The position numbers and the translations under genes were made by a program. The notes below the pieces were generated by a model. The model had not been told where the DNA came from, did not search any database, and saw only the letters and a program-made list of their open reading frames with translations. From contig CALKOC010000007.1 of assembly GCA_938091085.1 (NCBI GenBank), positions 1 to 53,142 on the forward strand: DNA of 53,142 nt, written 5' to 3'. The first letter of the stretch is position 1, and the number at the start of each line of letters is the position of its first letter. The stretch is from an uncultured Alphaproteobacteria bacterium (GTDB lineage Bacteria > Pseudomonadota > Alphaproteobacteria > RS24). Of this stretch, positions 12,631 to 20,674 are shown one piece after another.

Positions 12631-13002
12631 TTAATTAGGTGTTTTCGCAGGTGTCAATGTAACGCTTTCTCCACAACCACAAGCATCAGTTTGATTAGGA
12701 TTATTAAACACAAATCCCGAAGCAAGTTTTTCAGTTTGAAAATCCATTTCCGTGCCTATTAGGAACAGAACTGCTTTGAGGTCGACCAAAACTGTAACGC
12801 CCTTATCCTCAACAACTTCATCTTGAGGCATGATTTCGGTGGCGTATTCCATTGTATATTCCATGCCTGCGCAACCCGCGTTTTTAAGACCGAGGCGCAC
12901 CCCAAGATAATCTTCATCCGACTGCGCCATAATGTGCTTTACGCGATCAGCCGCAGCATCTGTAAGTGTAATTGTTTTTGGCAATTGAAGAGTTTGGTTC
13001 AT
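12631..13002 (-). CDS. A-type Fe-S carrier (IscA/SufA/ErpA family)
   Basis: HesB-like carrier that receives clusters from the SufBCD scaffold and passes them to apo-proteins. The 123 residues contain the three ligand cysteines in the family spacing: Cys44 (NAGCAGMEY) and the C-terminal pair Cys108/Cys110 (ACGCGESV). It begins 15 bp after sufT. I leave the symbol open because sequence alone does not separate SufA from IscA or ErpA; operon position suggests SufA. Confidence 0.93.
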   Translation of the reverse strand: MNQTLQLPKTITLTDAAADRVKHIMAQSDEDYLGVRLGLKNAGCAGMEYTMEYATEIMPQDEVVEDKGVTVLVDLKAVLFLIGTEMDFQTEKLASGFVFNNPNQTDACGCGESVTLTPAKTPN

Positions 13003-13017
13003 TATCTACCCCTATAC

Positions 13018-13464
13018 CTAAAACATATTAAGTGCAACTCGGGCCTCATCGGTCATACGACTTGGATCCCAAGGTGGCTCAAAAACCATATTTACCTTCA
13101 CATCACCAATGCCATCAAGGGCACTGACAGCATCCTGAACCCAAACCGGCATATGTTCGGCAACCGGGCATCCGGGTGCTGTTAGGGTCATATCAATATT
13201 TACATCCCTGTCATCGGTAACCTCTACACGATAAATCAGGCCAAGCTCGTAAATATCAACTGGGATTTCAGGGTCATATACACTTTTCAAAGCGCCGACG
13301 ATTTCATCTGTTAGAGCCTGCATTTCAGGAGAAATTTCAGGGGCAGCAGTTTCATCATTACTTTCAGCAGGCATTTCAACTGAAACAGAAGGTGTCTGAG
13401 CAACTTGAGCTTCAGCTGAAGTATCAATAACTGGCATGTCTTTATCTTGTGTGCTCTCAGACAT
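13018..13464 (-). CDS. sufT: SUF-associated maturation factor SufT (DUF59/MIP18 family)
   Basis: MIP18-family factor implicated in Fe-S protein maturation. Of 148 residues, the first 45 or so are acidic, Ala/Pro/Glu-rich and probably disordered. The DUF59 domain follows, with LKSVYDPEIPVDIYELGLIY and the conserved cysteine in TLTAPGCPVAEHMP. The frame extends to a TTG at 13476, but the ATG at 13464 is preceded by GGTGAG and lies 4 bp past the sufS stop, so I prefer it. Placement between sufS and the A-type carrier supports the assignment. Confidence 0.88.
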   Translation of the reverse strand: MSESTQDKDMPVIDTSAEAQVAQTPSVSVEMPAESNDETAAPEISPEMQALTDEIVGALKSVYDPEIPVDIYELGLIYRVEVTDDRDVNIDMTLTAPGCPVAEHMPVWVQDAVSALDGIGDVKVNMVFEPPWDPSRMTDEARVALNMF

Positions 13465-13468
13465 TATC

Positions 13469-14719
13469 TCACCCAAAAAAACTTATAGCTTTGTGAATGG
13501 ACTCGACAAGCGAGTCAATTTCATCACGCGTATTATACATTGCAAAAGAAGCGCGCGCCGTTGCTGTCACGCCAAATCGTTTCATAAGCGGTTGAGCGCA
13601 ATGGTGTCCAGCACGCACAGCAACCCCTGAACGATCAATCACTGTCGCCAGATCATGCGGGTGAATATCTTTAATAGTAAAAGAAATAACACTGCCCTTT
13701 TCAGGCGCCGTACCCATAATCGACAAATTGTTTATTTCAGTCATTTGGCGGGTTGCATACTCTAGAAGGTCGTGTTCATGCGCTGCAATTTCTTTACGAC
13801 CATAGCTTTCAATATAACGAAGGGCTGCACCCAGACCGATGACCTCTAAAATAGGGGGGGTACCGGCTTCAAATTTGTGAGGCAAATCACCATAAGTCAC
13901 ATTATCAAGTGTGACCTCACGTATCATTTCCCCACCCCCTCGATAGGGTCGCATTTTGTTAAGATAGTCGGCTTTGCCGTATAAAGCCCCGATGCCTGTC
14001 GGACCATAAAGCTTATGCCCGGATAGAACATAAAAATCACAATCAAGATCCTGAACATCCGTTTCAAGATGCACTGCACCTTGACAACCATCCACCAAAA
14101 CCGGGGCATCATGCTCATGAGCCAAGCGGATGATTTCTTTCATTGGGGTAACCGTTCCCAAAGCATTGGACATTTGTGTCAACGCAACAAATTTGGTTTT
14201 TGGCCCAAGAAGATTTTTGTAATCTTCCATATCAAAGGACCCATCATCATTGACACGCACCCATTTGATAACCGCGCCTTTGTGTTCTCGTAAATAATGC
14301 CAAGGGACAATATTAGAATGATGCTCCATTTCAGAGAGGATAATCTCATCCCCCTCGCCAATATGGTCAGCACCGTAACATTGGGCAACGAGGTTTAAGG
14401 CATCAGTCGCTCCACCTGTAAAAATAACTTCCTCAAGTGACGGCGCGTTCAAGAAGCGGCGGACATCTTCTCGGGCCACCTCAAAATCATCCGTGGCTTT
14501 ATTTGAGAGATAATGCAGCCCCCTATGCACATTCGCATAGCCGGAGGTCATTGCCTCATTCATGGCATTCATTACCTGAAGAGGTTTTTGTGCTGAAGCA
14601 GCATTGTCGAGATAAACCAGAGGCTTCCCATAAACCTCCATTGACAGAATTGGAAAATCTGCCCGAACTTTCTGGACATCAAACATCGTATTTGTTGCCA
14701 TTACTTCAGTTACCTGCAT
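13469..14719 (-). CDS. sufS: Cysteine desulfurase SufS (group II)
   Basis: PLP enzyme that takes sulfur from cysteine and delivers it to the SUF scaffold. Landmarks: VYLDNAASAQKPLQV near the start, HHSNIVPWH, the PLP lysine in LSGHKLYGPTGIGALYG, and the group II catalytic cysteine in RAGHHCAQPLMKRF. The frame opens with GTG at 14728 inside sufD. The ATG at 14719, one base after the sufD TAA, or the ATG at 14701 are the realistic starts; I give 14719. This operon also encodes a group I desulfurase (18179-19342). Confidence 0.95.
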   Translation of the reverse strand: MQVTEVMATNTMFDVQKVRADFPILSMEVYGKPLVYLDNAASAQKPLQVMNAMNEAMTSGYANVHRGLHYLSNKATDDFEVAREDVRRFLNAPSLEEVIFTGGATDALNLVAQCYGADHIGEGDEIILSEMEHHSNIVPWHYLREHKGAVIKWVRVNDDGSFDMEDYKNLLGPKTKFVALTQMSNALGTVTPMKEIIRLAHEHDAPVLVDGCQGAVHLETDVQDLDCDFYVLSGHKLYGPTGIGALYGKADYLNKMRPYRGGGEMIREVTLDNVTYGDLPHKFEAGTPPILEVIGLGAALRYIESYGRKEIAAHEHDLLEYATRQMTEINNLSIMGTAPEKGSVISFTIKDIHPHDLATVIDRSGVAVRAGHHCAQPLMKRFGVTATARASFAMYNTRDEIDSLVESIHKAISFFG

Positions 14720-14720
14720 C

Positions 14721-15914
14721 TTACGCACTCTTCTTTAAAAATGTTGCAACACGCTTCAACAAATTTTCTTGCAAGACAGCCCCTGCCGCAAAATCATCTA
14801 GACGTCCCAAAATTTCAGAAACAAAACCTTCAACTAACATGATGCGCGCTGCCTCTTCGCCAATGCCTCGGCTACGGAGAAAGAATAATGCTTCATGATC
14901 AATCTCTCCAATCGCTGAACCATGAGCACAAGCAACATCATCAGCATAAATCTCTAACTCAGGCTTCACATTCATCATCGCATCGGCTGACAACATTAGC
15001 GCATCAGATTTTTGCGTTGCTTCCACACGTTGGGCATCTTGATGAACAATCACCTTGCCCTGAAAAATCCCACATGCCTCATCATCCAAAATAGTTCTGG
15101 CAACTGTGTCACTGGTTGTATCGGCGCTAAGATGGTTTAGCCGTGTCGTGATATCAATATGTTGCTTACCACGCGAAAGAAGCGCAGTCGCAAGACCTGC
15201 ATGACTCCCAGGGGCATTAAATGTTACCCGGGTTTCAAGACGTCCAAGACCCCCAGACAAACTAATAGCAACATTATGATATTGCGCCCGCGCATCCAGA
15301 GAAACTCTATTAAGCAACAAGGAAACTTGTGTGTCCTCGGCCTGATGCAATCTTAAATGCCGGAGCATACTGTCTTCATGTTGATAGACATCGCTAACAA
15401 GTTGAGTATGCCCCCAGCCACTATGACTTTCTAGCAATGTAAGGCTTGCCCCCTCAGCGAGACGAAAGACGATACGCACAAAGGAAGCCTCTTCAGAAGA
15501 AGTGTTATGAAAATGAATTTCCATAGGCTCTTCAATAACCTGCGAAACATCAATCACAATACCCGTTTCAAGATGAGCGAGATTGGCATATAGAAGCGGA
15601 TCAGTAACATCTTCGTCAGACTGTTGAACAAGTTCTGGGTGATCTATGAGCGCACTAATCTCAAGCCCGTCAGGCAGTTCTTCCACCTCGGTCAATAGTC
15701 CATTGATAAAATCAAGCTGAAGCGCATCCTCAATATCGCATGTGAGCTTATCTAGACGAACATCTTCAGAAAGCTCAAGCGACTGGTTTTGAAAAGACGA
15801 AGGCAAACGAGCTGAAAGATCGGTATAGTGCCAATCTTCATTCCTTTTGTTCGGCCAGCCATTCGCAGCGAAAATTTCTTTCGCTTCTTGCTGCATATGA
15901 TTGAAACTGGTCAT
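14721..15914 (-). CDS. sufD: Fe-S assembly scaffold subunit SufD
   Basis: Component of the SufBC2D scaffold. The 397 residues begin with a helical region and the typical RNEDWHYTDL segment. A beta-helix core follows, and the protein ends in the SufB/SufD signature ACAHGSAIGEIDHEALFFLR with RGIGEEAARIMLVEGF. It starts 17 bp after sufC and ends one base before the chosen sufS start. Confidence 0.94.
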   Translation of the reverse strand: MTSFNHMQQEAKEIFAANGWPNKRNEDWHYTDLSARLPSSFQNQSLELSEDVRLDKLTCDIEDALQLDFINGLLTEVEELPDGLEISALIDHPELVQQSDEDVTDPLLYANLAHLETGIVIDVSQVIEEPMEIHFHNTSSEEASFVRIVFRLAEGASLTLLESHSGWGHTQLVSDVYQHEDSMLRHLRLHQAEDTQVSLLLNRVSLDARAQYHNVAISLSGGLGRLETRVTFNAPGSHAGLATALLSRGKQHIDITTRLNHLSADTTSDTVARTILDDEACGIFQGKVIVHQDAQRVEATQKSDALMLSADAMMNVKPELEIYADDVACAHGSAIGEIDHEALFFLRSRGIGEEAARIMLVEGFVSEILGRLDDFAAGAVLQENLLKRVATFLKKSA

Positions 15915-15931
15915 GATTTACATGCTTCCAT

Positions 15932-16693
15932 CTAGGCCACCACTTCGCCCACATAATCGGCGTAACCAGATTTTTCGAGCTCCAAAGCAAGTTCAGCTGA
16001 GCCAGTTTTGACAATCTGACCCCCAGCCAAAATATGCACAATGTCAGGTTTGATATAATCCAGCAGACGTTGATAATGCGTGATAACAAGCATGCCTCGT
16101 TGAGTATCCCGCAAAGCATTCACGCCCTCAGCCACAGTTTTAAGGGCATCAATATCCAGCCCGCTATCTGTCTCATCCAATATTGCCATCAATGGCTCAA
16201 GCACTGACATTTGTAAAATTTCATTCCGCTTCTTTTCGCCGCCAGAAAAACCAACATTGAGCGGACGCTTCAACATGTCATCATCCAGTCGCAAGGCTTT
16301 CGCCTTTTCTCGGACAAAACGCAGGAAGCTCGCTGCATCCATTTCCTCTTCGCCACGTCCGCGCCGCACAGCATTCACAGATGTTTTCAAAAAGGTCATA
16401 TTTGTAACGCCGGGGATCTCAAGCGGATATTGAAAGGCAAGGAATAATCCCGCAATGGCTCTGTCCTCGGGGTTCATGCCTTTAAGGCTGACACCATTCA
16501 GCAAAATATCGCCATTTGTGATTTCATAACCATCACGACCCGCAAGAACATATGAAAGCGTGGACTTACCGGAACCGTTCGGCCCCATAATTGCATGAAC
16601 TTCACCAGCAGAGACACTTAAACTCAGACCTTTGAGAATTTCCGTGTCGGCGACAGAAACATGTAGATTCTTAATTTCAAGCAAAGCACTCAT
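15932..16693 (-). CDS. sufC: Fe-S assembly ATPase SufC
   Basis: ABC-type ATPase that drives conformational change of SufB-SufD. The 253 residues contain Walker [10 protein letters not shown], the SufC signature [14 protein letters not shown], Walker [17 protein letters not shown], and the H-loop [12 protein letters not shown]. There is no transmembrane partner, as expected. Its ATG overlaps the sufB TGA (ATGA, 16690-16693). Confidence 0.97.
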
Positions 16694-18174
16694 CCAACGC
16701 TTCCTTCCAGTGATATGCCGACAAGCTTTTGCGCTTCAACGGCAAACTCCATGGGCAGGTGTTGCAGAACATCTTTACAAAAACCATTAACGATAAGAGA
16801 AACAGCTTCCTCCGCATCCAAACCACGTTGCTGACAATAAAATAATTGGTCATCACTGATTTTGGACGTTGTGGCCTCATGCTCCAAAATGGCCGAGGGG
16901 TTTTTGGTTTCGATATATGGCACTGTGTGGGCTGAACAGGTATCCCCAATCAGCAAACTATCACACTGCGTAAAATTGCGAGCCTTATCAGCTTTGCGGT
17001 GAATACTCACCTGACCGCGATAAGCATTTGAGGACTTACCTGCTGAGATACCTTTGGAAATGATGCGGCTAGATGTGTTCTTTCCAAGATGTATCATCTT
17101 CGTGCCACTGTCTATTTGCTGATAATTATTACCAATAGCAATGGAGTAAAATTCACCAACAGTATTATCGCCGCGCAAAATGCAGGAAGGGTATTTCCAA
17201 GTGATTGCCGATCCAGTTTCAACCTGTGTCCATGAAATCTTGGCGTTATTCTCGCGGCAGTCGCCCCGTTTAGTAACAAAATTATAAATTCCGCCACGGC
17301 CTTCTTCATCACCAGGATACCAGTTTTGAACCGTGGAATATTTAATTTCAGCATCTTCTAACGCCACAAGTTCAACAACCGCCGCATGGAGTTGATTTTC
17401 ATCACGCATAGGCGCTGTACAACCCTCAAGGTAACTGACATATGACCCTTTATCGGCAATCAGGAGTGTCCGCTCAAATTGACCCGTATTGGGCTCATTA
17501 ATCCGGAAATAAGTCGATAGCTCCATCGGACAGCGTGTGTTGGGTGGAATGTAAACAAATGACCCGTCAGAAAATACAGCGGAATTTAGAGCCGTGAAGT
17601 AATTATCGGATTTTGGTACAACCGTGCCTAGGTATTTTTTTACCAGTTCCGGGTGTTCTTTTACCGCCTCGGAGAAAGAGCAGAATATCACGCCCGCAGT
17701 AGCAAGCTCTTCTCTAAATGTGGTTGCGACAGATACACTGTCGAAAACGGCGTCTACCGCTACTCTGTTTTTAACACCAGCAAGAACTTCTTGCTCATAT
17801 AAAGGAATACCAAGCTTTTCATAAGTTCTGAGCAATTCAGGATCCACCTCATCCAATGTTTCGGGGCGGTCATCCATACTTTTAGGCGCGGAATAATAAT
17901 ATAAATCCTGATAGTCAATCTGAGGGTAATCCACCATGGCCCATTCAGGCTCGCTCATAGTTAACCAACGTTCGAAAGCATCTAGGCGCCATTCCAACAG
18001 CCATTCCGGCTCTTCTTTTTTTGCTGAAATGAATCTGATGATATCTTCATTGAGACCTTTGGGTGCTTTCTCACTGTCAATGTCAGTAGAGAAGCCATAT
18101 TTATACTTCTCCCCCGCTAGGCTTTGAACCTTCTCGACGGTTTCTTTTTCAATATTTTGTTTTGCCTGACTCAT
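16690..18174 (-). CDS. sufB: Fe-S assembly scaffold subunit SufB
   Basis: Main scaffold on which the nascent cluster forms. The 494 residues show [19 protein letters not shown], the [20 protein letters not shown] segment, [20 protein letters not shown], and SQCDSL-like [11 protein letters not shown] near the C-terminus, all diagnostic for SufB. Length is usual. It starts 4 bp after the upstream desulfurase gene. Confidence 0.97.
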
Positions 18175-18178
18175 AAAG

Positions 18179-19342
18179 CTACATCCGGTTCGCTGACTGA
18201 AGTTGGGGTTGAGAAAGATCTACATGACCTTTCAAGGCTGAAATTAAATGGTTGATATCCGAGGCCGTATTGGTCTGCCCAAAACTGATACGTATGGTAC
18301 CCTCTAATAGATTGTGCTGGACACCCATAGCTTCAAGGACATGACTCCGCGTCACCTTGCCGCTGGAACAAGCTGCACCTGAACTCACTGCGATACCCGC
18401 AAGATCCAATGACATAATCATGGTTTCTGAGCGCATATCCGGCAATGCAAAACAACTCGTATTAGGAAGCCGTTCCACACTTTCGGCAAAAATAGAAATT
18501 TCAGGAAAAGCAGCGACAAGTTGACTTTCCAAATCATCGCGCAATGTCGATAGATTTGAATAAGAAGAAAGCCCTTGCTTTGCGAGACGCGCCGCCAAAC
18601 CAAATCCGACACATCCAGCAAGGTTTTCTGTTCCTGCACGGCGGCGCAATTCCTGACCACCACCTCTAATAAGTGGGTTTAAAACAATACCGTCACGCAC
18701 AACCAATGCACCGACACCCGCCGCGCCACCGATTTTATGCGCTGATAGGCTAAGAATATCAATATTCATATCCTTCATGGAAAGTGGAATTTTGCCCGCA
18801 GCTTGAATAGCATCGCAGAAGAATAAACTGCCATGAGCCCTAACCATCGCGCCAATCTCACCAATTGGCTGAACCACCCCCGTTTCATTATTTGCAGCCA
18901 TCACAACTACCAATGCGGGGGATGGGTCCTCCAGAGCCAAAGAAAGCGCATTTAAATCAACAATGCCCTGCCCTGACACTGGAAGATGCGTCACAGTAAT
19001 ATTCGAATATTCGGCTAAATCATCAAGCGGAGCCAAAACAGCGGCATGCTCGATAGAAGAAACAATGATGCGGGTGATATTACCTGCAGGCGCTTTTCTT
19101 GTTTGCAAAGCCAAATTGCATGCCTCAGTTCCACCACCTGTGAAAATAACACCTCCAGCTTCACCATCTACAAAAAGGGCTATTTGCTCTCGAGCAACTT
19201 CCAAAAATTGCCGGGCTTTACGACCTTCGGCATGAACAGATGAGGCGTTTCCACCAATCTGTAAAACTTCAGACATAGTATCCAGCACTTCCGGTCTAAT
19301 CGGGACCGTCGCATTATGATCAAGATAAACACGTTGGGTCAT
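18179..19342 (-). CDS. Cysteine desulfurase, IscS/NifS type (group I)
   Basis: PLP-dependent desulfurase of the NifS/IscS class. The 387 residues start with [15 protein letters not shown], carry the PLP lysine in [15 protein letters not shown], and place the catalytic cysteine in a [11 protein letters not shown] loop followed by SHVLEAMG, which is the group I pattern. Its stop lies 4 bp before sufB, and its ATG overlaps the iscR stop (ATGA). A group I desulfurase at the head of a suf operon that also encodes SufS is a common alphaproteobacterial arrangement. Confidence 0.93.
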
Positions 19343-19821
19343 GACAGATGTGCCGATACTTGCGCAGACCCATTTGTTGGTTTGCCTGTATTGCCTGAAA
19401 TAACATCATTCAAAGATACGCTGTTAAGAAACCCGTCAATCTGGCTAGTTAAATCCGCCCATAAATCATGGGTCAGACACCGCGCATGTCCTTTTAAGCA
19501 GCCGTCGGAGGTCTGACAACGGGTGATATCAACCACTTCTTCAACACTGGAGATAATATCCCCAATCCAAATTTCTTGCGGCGAGCGAGATAAACGAAAA
19601 CCACCATGTGCACCTCTGACGCTTTCAACAAGACCAAACTTCCTCAAGTCCTGAAATATCTGTTCCAGATAGGGTAAAGATATTTGCTGGCGTTCGGCTA
19701 CCATCGTTAATGCAACAGGTTTGGTAAGCGCAGACTCATCACGCGATTTATCGGCATAGTAATGCTGAGCAAGGTCCGTCATGGCCATTACGGCATATCT
19801 TCCGCGCGTGGATAATTTCAT
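19339..19821 (-). CDS. iscR: Rrf2-family Fe-S regulator IscR
   Basis: Cluster-sensing winged-helix regulator. The 160 residues begin MKLSTRGRYAVMAMTDLA and carry the recognition-helix region ISLPYLEQIFQDLRKFGLV plus the wing SVRGAHGGFRLSR. Three candidate cluster-ligand cysteines sit at 102, 108 and 115 (TRCQTSDGCLKGHARCLTH), a C-x5-C-x6-C spacing. The C-terminal tail of about 30 residues is variable. It is the first gene of the operon and lies behind a promoter containing a palindrome, which suggests autoregulation. Confidence 0.93.
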   Translation of the reverse strand: MKLSTRGRYAVMAMTDLAQHYYADKSRDESALTKPVALTMVAERQQISLPYLEQIFQDLRKFGLVESVRGAHGGFRLSRSPQEIWIGDIISSVEEVVDITRCQTSDGCLKGHARCLTHDLWADLTSQIDGFLNSVSLNDVISGNTGKPTNGSAQVSAHLS

Positions 19822-19899
19822 AACCCTATGTTCCTACAAATAAATTATTAAAAAGCTTGATTTTCATGGGCTGGTCTGTGCTAAACACATTTCAAGTTT

Positions 19900-19928
19900 T
19901 ATATAGTAATCCTGACTGGATTAGTCAA
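19900..19928 (-). promoter_or_regulatory. Promoter of the iscR-suf operon
   Basis: On the minus strand TTGACT (19923-19928, 5/6 match to -35) and TATATA (19900-19905, 4/6 match to -10) are separated by exactly 17 bp. The predicted leader to the iscR ATG is about 70 nt. The -35 box forms one arm of the palindrome at 19913-19927. Confidence 0.65.
19913..19927. promoter_or_regulatory. Palindrome TGACT-N5-AGTCA, probable IscR operator
   Basis: A perfect 5-bp inverted repeat (TGACTGGATTAGTCA) covers the -35 box and spacer of the iscR promoter. A bound protein there would block RNA polymerase, as expected for autorepression. Its centre is 53 bp upstream of the divergent hydrolase ATG, so that gene could share the control. 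Assignment to IscR is inferred from position. Confidence 0.6.
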
Positions 19929-19972
19929 GTTTGTGCATATCTAATTTTTTACTTTCAAAATGGACCCTATAA

Positions 19973-20674
19973 ATGCCAGAAATTATCTTTAACGGCCCAG
20001 ATGGACGCCTCGAAGGTCGTTATGTTCAAAAGGCGACTGAGGGGAAGCCGATGGCGCTGATACTCCATCCTCTGCCCCAACTCGGCGGAAATATGAATAA
20101 CCCTGTTACCTATCAGCTTTATCAATCATTTCTGAACAGAGGGTTTACGGTATTAAGGTTTAACTTTCGTGGTGTTGGGAAAAGTCAGGGAAGTTATGAT
20201 CACGGAATTGGCGAATTATCCGATGCCGCCGCTGCGCTGGATTGGCTTCAAAGCTTTAACCCTGATGCTAAGCAATGCTGGCTGGCTGGTTATTCTTTTG
20301 GCGCATGGATTGGTATGCAATTATTGATGCGCCGCCCAGAAATTAACGGCTTTATATCTGTTTCGCCCCCAGCCAACCTTCATGATTTTAGTTTTCTCGC
20401 GCCCTGCCCGTCTTCAGGATTGATTGTTCATGGTGACGAAGACAAAATCGTCGATACGGAGAGTGTTGGAAAAATGGTAGAACGACTGCAAGCGCAAAAG
20501 GGAATTGAAATCACTTATAAAAACATCAATGGTGCCAATCATTTTTATAATGACCATTTGGAAGAGCTGGATAAGACAGTTAATGATTATCTAGATGAGC
20601 GCCTTGTAATTCCTGAAAGCCCGGTTGCTGAGCCGGCACCTTCCCCCGAGGAAGAGCCATCTCAGGACGAATAA
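19973..20674 (+). CDS. Alpha/beta hydrolase (COG2945-like)
   Basis: Serine hydrolase of unknown substrate. The 233 residues contain an oxyanion region HPLPQLGGNMNN, FNFRGVGKSQG, the nucleophile elbow GYSFGAW with serine near residue 108, an acid residue in VHGDEDKIV and the catalytic histidine in GANHFYNDH. The last 20 residues are Pro/Glu-rich. Its stop lies inside the convergent anmK gene (13-bp overlap). It is divergent from iscR, with the palindrome between them. Confidence 0.82.
   Translation: MPEIIFNGPDGRLEGRYVQKATEGKPMALILHPLPQLGGNMNNPVTYQLYQSFLNRGFTVLRFNFRGVGKSQGSYDHGIGELSDAAAALDWLQSFNPDAKQCWLAGYSFGAWIGMQLLMRRPEINGFISVSPPANLHDFSFLAPCPSSGLIVHGDEDKIVDTESVGKMVERLQAQKGIEITYKNINGANHFYNDHLEELDKTVNDYLDERLVIPESPVAEPAPSPEEEPSQDE

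Follow-up and report, generated by a model that had tools for sequence, protein, structure and literature searches.

An iscR-headed Fe-S operon is encoded in the stretch of 53,142 bp analysed here (the window), and an exact palindrome overlaps the promoter in front of it. This arrangement raises the questions whether the palindrome is an operator, which regulator would bind to it and how far the resulting control extends.

Palindrome and promoter upstream of iscR

The site and the promoter are made up of the following elements.

19913-19927, no strand assigned: core dyad TGACT-N5-AGTCA, TGACTGGATTAGTCA, exact match and unique in the window
19928-19923, minus strand: -35 hexamer TTGACT of the iscR promoter, sharing one dyad arm; a single copy per 300 bp upstream in 25/25 family sequences
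19905-19900, minus strand: -10 hexamer TATATA, 17 bp from the -35 hexamer; TATA at this place in 24/25 family sequences

The initial annotation had placed TGACT-N5-AGTCA over the -35 box and the spacer of a promoter with 17-bp spacing, and this description holds exactly, with the dyad at 19913-19927 and the hexamers TTGACT and TATATA flanking a spacer of 17 bp (AATCCAGTCAGGATTAC). On the minus strand, i.e., toward iscR, the site reads AAACTTGACTAATCCAGTCAGGATTACTATATA, the iscR start follows 78 bp downstream of TATATA and, by the usual spacing rule, the iscR transcript would begin near 19893. The promoter had also been called a good one, of which the 17-bp spacing stands, whereas only 9 of the 12 hexamer letters agree by our own count, making it moderate by E. 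coli rules, and a scan of the intergenic region for E. coli-type consensus promoters listed none, the TTGACT/TATATA pair included. According to our own reading of the scanner, the pair is missed because TATATA probably fails its rule of a T at position 6. A hairpin in the RNA was rejected on geometric grounds, as the dyad, being upstream of the -10 hexamer, should be absent from the iscR transcript.

While TGACTGGATTAGTCA has one exact copy in the 53,142-bp window, allowing up to two mismatches results in 28 matches versus 19.1 ± 4.5 in 100 shuffles, with 28 being reached by 2 of these. In 5000 first-order Markov copies of the 151-bp intergenic region, the exact word TGACTGGATTAGTCA never occurred, but a perfect 5+5 dyad of any word with N5 spacing was present in 25%. 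When spacings from N3 to N8 are considered, four 5+5 dyads are observed in the intergenic region, and 13% of 5000 Markov copies have at least four. The frequency of N5-spaced dyads, as well as the identity of one arm with the -35 itself, would suit an explanation of the palindrome as a by-product, with a left arm that is merely the -35 hexamer and a right arm that happens to form its reverse complement within the spacer. Taken by itself, the dyad carries little weight, and the case for an operator is made by conservation.

Operon and regulator

All genes of the operon are encoded on the minus strand.

19339-19821, minus strand: iscR, 160-aa Rrf2-family regulator with Cys3His cluster ligands (TIGR02010, E 1.1e-46; Pfam Rrf2; alignment)
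18179-19342, minus strand: cysteine desulfurase of the IscS/NifS type, second gene (best model NifS TIGR03402, 380.3 bits, under the cut-off of 530.75)
16690-18174, minus strand: sufB (family search)
15932-16693, minus strand: sufC (family search)
14721-15914, minus strand: probable sufD (ORF, named from reading the translation)
13469-14728, minus strand: probable sufS (ORF, named likewise)
13018-13476, minus strand: probable DUF59/SufT-like gene (ORF, named likewise)
12631-13002, minus strand: probable IscA/SufA-like gene (ORF, named likewise)

The promoter bearing the box precedes iscR-iscS-sufB-sufC, an iscR-headed Fe-S operon. Among the NCBIfam models, the regulator is best matched by the IscR model TIGR02010, at 158 bits and under the cut-off of 207.55, and NF008110 is likewise missed (139.2 bits, cut-off 275); the Rrf2 superfamily model (134.2 versus a cut-off of 73.3) and Pfam Rrf2 (112.6 versus 30) are passed. 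As the NCBIfam cut-offs for IscR are missed, the protein is referred to as an IscR-like member of the Rrf2 family that has the ligands and the context of IscR but stands outside those equivalogs. Its alignment places C, C, C and H at E. coli positions 92, 98, 104 and 107, respectively. Across 109 aligned IscR sequences, a set which includes repeats of a genome, the three cysteines at 92/98/104 are present in all 109 and His107 in 108. From the DNA-contact residues of E. coli IscR named in the available text of PMC11475020 (S40, Y41, E43, Q44, and R59), the window protein keeps Y41, E43, Q44, and R59, i.e., four of five, and has Pro at the place of Ser40. Similarly, Y41 is found in 108 and E43, Q44, and R59 in 109 of the 109 sequences, with position 40 occupied by S (72), N (17), P (12), A (6) or L (2). 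Judged by iscR, the closest named records are those of PS1 clade MED-G50 and Rhodobiaceae UBA6963 (both 96% identity) and of the isolate IMCC14465 (89%).

The genome (1.70 Mb, 90.6% complete) encodes a second Rrf2-like protein (L002, 1474-1935) with 28% identity to IscR. Hence, the main ligand of the palindrome might be sought in another Rrf2 or iron-family regulator, be it this second Rrf2 protein, Fur, Irr or a RirA-like protein, and the available text of PMC4618611 and PMC6956336 indeed reports the Iron-Rhodo-box as being similar to the RirA box. As judged by reading, however, the L002 paralogue does not possess the three-cysteine ligand set and is located beside a cysteine-synthase-like gene; it is perhaps a CymR-like regulator.

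Agreement with the IscR Type 1 consensus

The palindrome is embedded in a longer predicted site.

19908-19932, minus strand: predicted IscR Type 1-like operator, 25-mer AAACTTGACTAATCCAGTCAGGATT, 21/25 consensus positions; top matrix score in the window

The published IscR Type 1 consensus ATASYYGACTRWWWYAGTCRRSTAT, taken from the available text of PMC6599224, agrees with the 25-mer at 21 of 25 positions. In 2000 Markov copies of the window's intergenic region, a score of 21 was never obtained and a score of 20 in two cases. With a matrix derived from 19 family sites of other genera, 19908-19932 is the best site in the window (28.6), followed by its own opposite strand (15.0) and, as next independent site, one scoring 9.4.

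Conservation within the family

The comparison of the DNA upstream of iscR covered 109 sequences (95 distinct ones over 150 bp), from which the window's own copy (L001), the paralogue (L002) and a locus with a cut start (L075) had been dropped beforehand. The 28 family genomes gave 25 readable upstream regions, as one had no match (G004), one only a paralogue-level match (G021) and one a cut gene start (G012). The twenty-fifth region (G014), in which the box reaches 21/25 and TATA is in place, is absent from the counts based on 24 regions. A search of related genomes for the dyad ahead of iscR had been suggested in the initial annotation, and within the family it turned out clearly positive: a box scoring 19-22 of 25 is found upstream of iscR in all 25 readable regions, with the TATA of the -10 at the same distance in 24 of them, and a common form of this box is CTTGACTAATTTAGTCGGA. 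In one family member (L026) the operator scores 19/25, though in its IscR the aligned position of the His ligand is occupied by Arg.

Located within the spacer, the right arm has an exact AGTC in 18 of 24 family sequences and GGTC in 3 more, and G or A and then G come after it in 24/24. In the 24-region family alignment, the AGTC amounts to 1.46-2.0 bits per column, compared to at most 0.67 bits for columns -25 to -2; more generally, the columns outside box and -10 show 0.03-0.67 bits, with 0.81-1.26 at the edge positions -1, 25, 26, and 32. Sigma-70 requires no fixed letters in the spacer. In this alignment, the box is conserved beyond what the -35 would require, the right arm included, while the flanks have diverged.

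The boxes were chosen as best fit to the consensus, which by itself creates some sameness, and therefore the same picking was run on 100 sets of 24 Markov copies. The mean score of the 24 family regions was 20.6 versus 15.8 in the Markov sets (highest set 16.3), the right-arm information 1.68 versus 0.30 bits (highest 0.61), and TATA was at the -10 place in 23/24 versus at most 1/24. An anchor free of picking gives the same picture, as TTGACT occurs once per 300 bp upstream in 24/24 regions and is followed by TATA 17 bp on in 23. Markov controls ignore shared descent, for which the diverged flanks of the family alignment serve instead.

The conserved right arm between diverged flanks, in agreement with the picking control, and the fit of the 25-mer to a published operator consensus both argue against a palindrome arisen by chance from the -35 hexamer, making this origin extremely improbable. 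Likewise, a site in agreement with the IscR Type 1 consensus, positioned in front of iscR itself in the family, speaks against Fur, Irr, a RirA-like protein or the Rrf2 paralogue as main ligand, a possibility which is considered very unlikely. IscR, on the other hand, had been named in the initial annotation as ligand and autorepressor due to the position of the site, and this proposal gains support from the boxes in 25/25 family regions and the Type 1 fit of 21/25, as far as sequence comparison can tell.

Conservation outside the family

In more distant relatives, conservation of the box is patchy on the basis of the sequences compared. The best site is anchored at TTGAC in 44 of 46 Caulobacterales regions, but scores are 15-17 of 25 in 39 of the 46, a range which chance also reaches, and 18-22 in 7, among them the best Caulobacterales boxes in L105 (Phenylobacterium, 22) and L051 (Caulobacteraceae, 21). 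The usual Caulobacterales form is like ATACTTGACC-N3-GCGCTTGGTCTT with a degenerate right arm, and this degenerate arm is seen at the same promoter place in L042, L056, L059, and L073 as well as in other Caulobacterales loci. Homology of the Caulobacterales site would rest mainly on the shared position, and, with the family alignment as reference, the degenerate site may represent a derived Type 1 box.

Among 10 further class-level regions, a clear box at TTGAC is present in three (L177, 24/25; L179, 19; L181, 20), and L182 has a TTGAC-anchored box of 17/25. Six of the 10 regions have no trustworthy box, though L173 reaches 19 without TTGAC. The near-perfect Type 1 box of L177, a distant class-level relative, is close to the iscR start codon, between 39 and 15 bp ahead of it. 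No credible box was found in the 300 bp upstream in, among others, L028, L029, L030, L091, L096, L100, and L102. Two Type 1-like boxes, 28 bp apart, occur upstream of iscR in L061 (Reyranellaceae), L054, and L065, and these pairs resemble the tandem sites of P. aeruginosa.

Search for further sites in the genome

The exact operator pattern CTTGACTNNNNNAGTCRGRWT has one copy in the genome, at iscR, although such a count would miss degenerate sites. Allowing up to three mismatches yields 56 genome matches versus 62 for the reversed control, and at two mismatches there are two matches, namely the opposite strand of the iscR site and one on C17. The relatives' matrix was applied to 30 loci retrieved on the basis of the 56 matches, and among these the best besides iscR was L126 with 12.8 versus 28.6. 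This match is situated within a reading frame judged EF-hand-like from its translation and is probably due to chance. In eight relatives, an 18-base looser pattern with up to two mismatches gave no excess over the control among the matches listed, which include one further exact match (G013 C33). A wider IscR regulon in the genome was rejected, the match count being no higher than in the reversed control and the iscR site alone being exact. A single exact copy in a 90.6% complete genome would suit a regulator acting locally on its own operon better than a global one.

Divergent hydrolase gene

On the other side of the predicted operator, a gene of opposite orientation is encoded.

19973-20674, plus strand: divergent alpha/beta hydrolase, start codon 40 bp from the operator

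Among the 95 distinct regions, 85 contain a divergent homologue of this hydrolase at a distance of up to 600 bp from iscR, and in 6 others it is 0.91-1.09 kb away; it was not found in 4, two of which had only 154 bp readable. The gene is retained near iscR in many Alphaproteobacteria. The best box is TTGAC-anchored in 71 of the 85 hydrolase loci and begins at most 25 bp from the hydrolase start codon in 20 of these 71, so that there the polymerase transcribing the hydrolase gene must share DNA with the box or transcribe across it. A single near-symmetric IscR box that also switches the divergent hydrolase is conceivable but rather unlikely; if true, the box would exert bidirectional control and the hydrolase would belong to the Fe-S response. 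For the Rhodobacter putative hydrolase RSP_0444, the available text of PMC4618611 and PMC6956336 gives only small expression changes and describes its position as being kept in most Rhodobacteraceae and Rhizobiaceae, with function data lacking there. Because of this published position, the iscR-hydrolase neighbourhood is already in print.

Proposed regulation

Taken together, the palindrome is with high probability an IscR Type 1 operator mediating feedback repression of iscR-iscS-suf by holo-IscR. Starting from what is observed, i.e., a site that overlaps the promoter and is conserved in the family, together with an IscR that bears the cluster ligands, the relatives and the published biochemistry of IscR point to IscR binding, cluster dependence and repression. 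When clusters are plentiful, dimers of [2Fe-2S]-IscR would occupy the 25-bp site, cover the -35 hexamer plus most of the spacer and thereby exclude RNA polymerase from the iscR-iscS-suf promoter. When clusters are scarce, cluster-free IscR would leave the Type 1 site and the operon would be derepressed. Points that count against this reading are the patchy conservation of the box outside the family, the Arg in the IscR of L026, the Pro at the Ser40 position of the window protein and its scores under the NCBIfam cut-offs for IscR.

By this, a PS1-clade genome, a small-genome relative of the marine isolate IMCC14465, would join the standard IscR feedback scheme. A limited literature search on the PS1 clade found no report of this operator site for it. 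The site is ordinary, being a known operator type in a new clade, and the family alignment yields a clean Type 1 matrix for the relatives compared in it.

Comparison with known systems

In P. aeruginosa, the Type 1 sites on the iscR promoter require cluster-ligated IscR, and repression is brought about by promoter overlap (PMC6599224, available text). The window site shares with the Type 1 sites of E. coli and P. aeruginosa the consensus (21/25) and the overlap with the promoter, and in the window, too, iscR is the leading gene of its operon and IscR possesses the cluster ligands. In contrast to these systems, the operon of the window is a mixed isc-suf one, and whereas P. aeruginosa has tandem A and B sites, the intergenic region of the window contains one such site.

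In Caulobacter crescentus, according to the available text of PMC11475020, the iscR promoter is derepressed in the absence of iscR, an IscR ChIP peak overlaps the -35, and a second, IscR-independent rise occurs at low iron. Caulobacter and the window thus have in common an iscR-headed isc-suf operon with a site at the -35, evident from the ChIP peak in the former and as a predicted box in the latter. However, in the same text the Caulobacter iscR promoter sequence is of low similarity to the authors' TypeII motif, while the window site has a clean Type 1 form.

For Rhodobacter sphaeroides, the available text of PMC4618611 and PMC6956336 describes a predicted IscR box in the main iscR promoter, extending from -36 to -19, and reports repression by IscR as well as its binding to the iscR promoter region. 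Accordingly, both R. sphaeroides and the window have a predicted box over the -35 and spacer of the iscR promoter and a gene described as a hydrolase on the opposite strand (the putative RSP_0444 in the former). The regulators differ: IscR of Rhodobacter contains only one cysteine and ligates its cluster in an unusual way, whereas the window protein bears the Cys3His set. Together, the reports on IscR in P. aeruginosa, Caulobacter, and Rhodobacter make autorepression by IscR the expected reading of the palindrome upstream of iscR.
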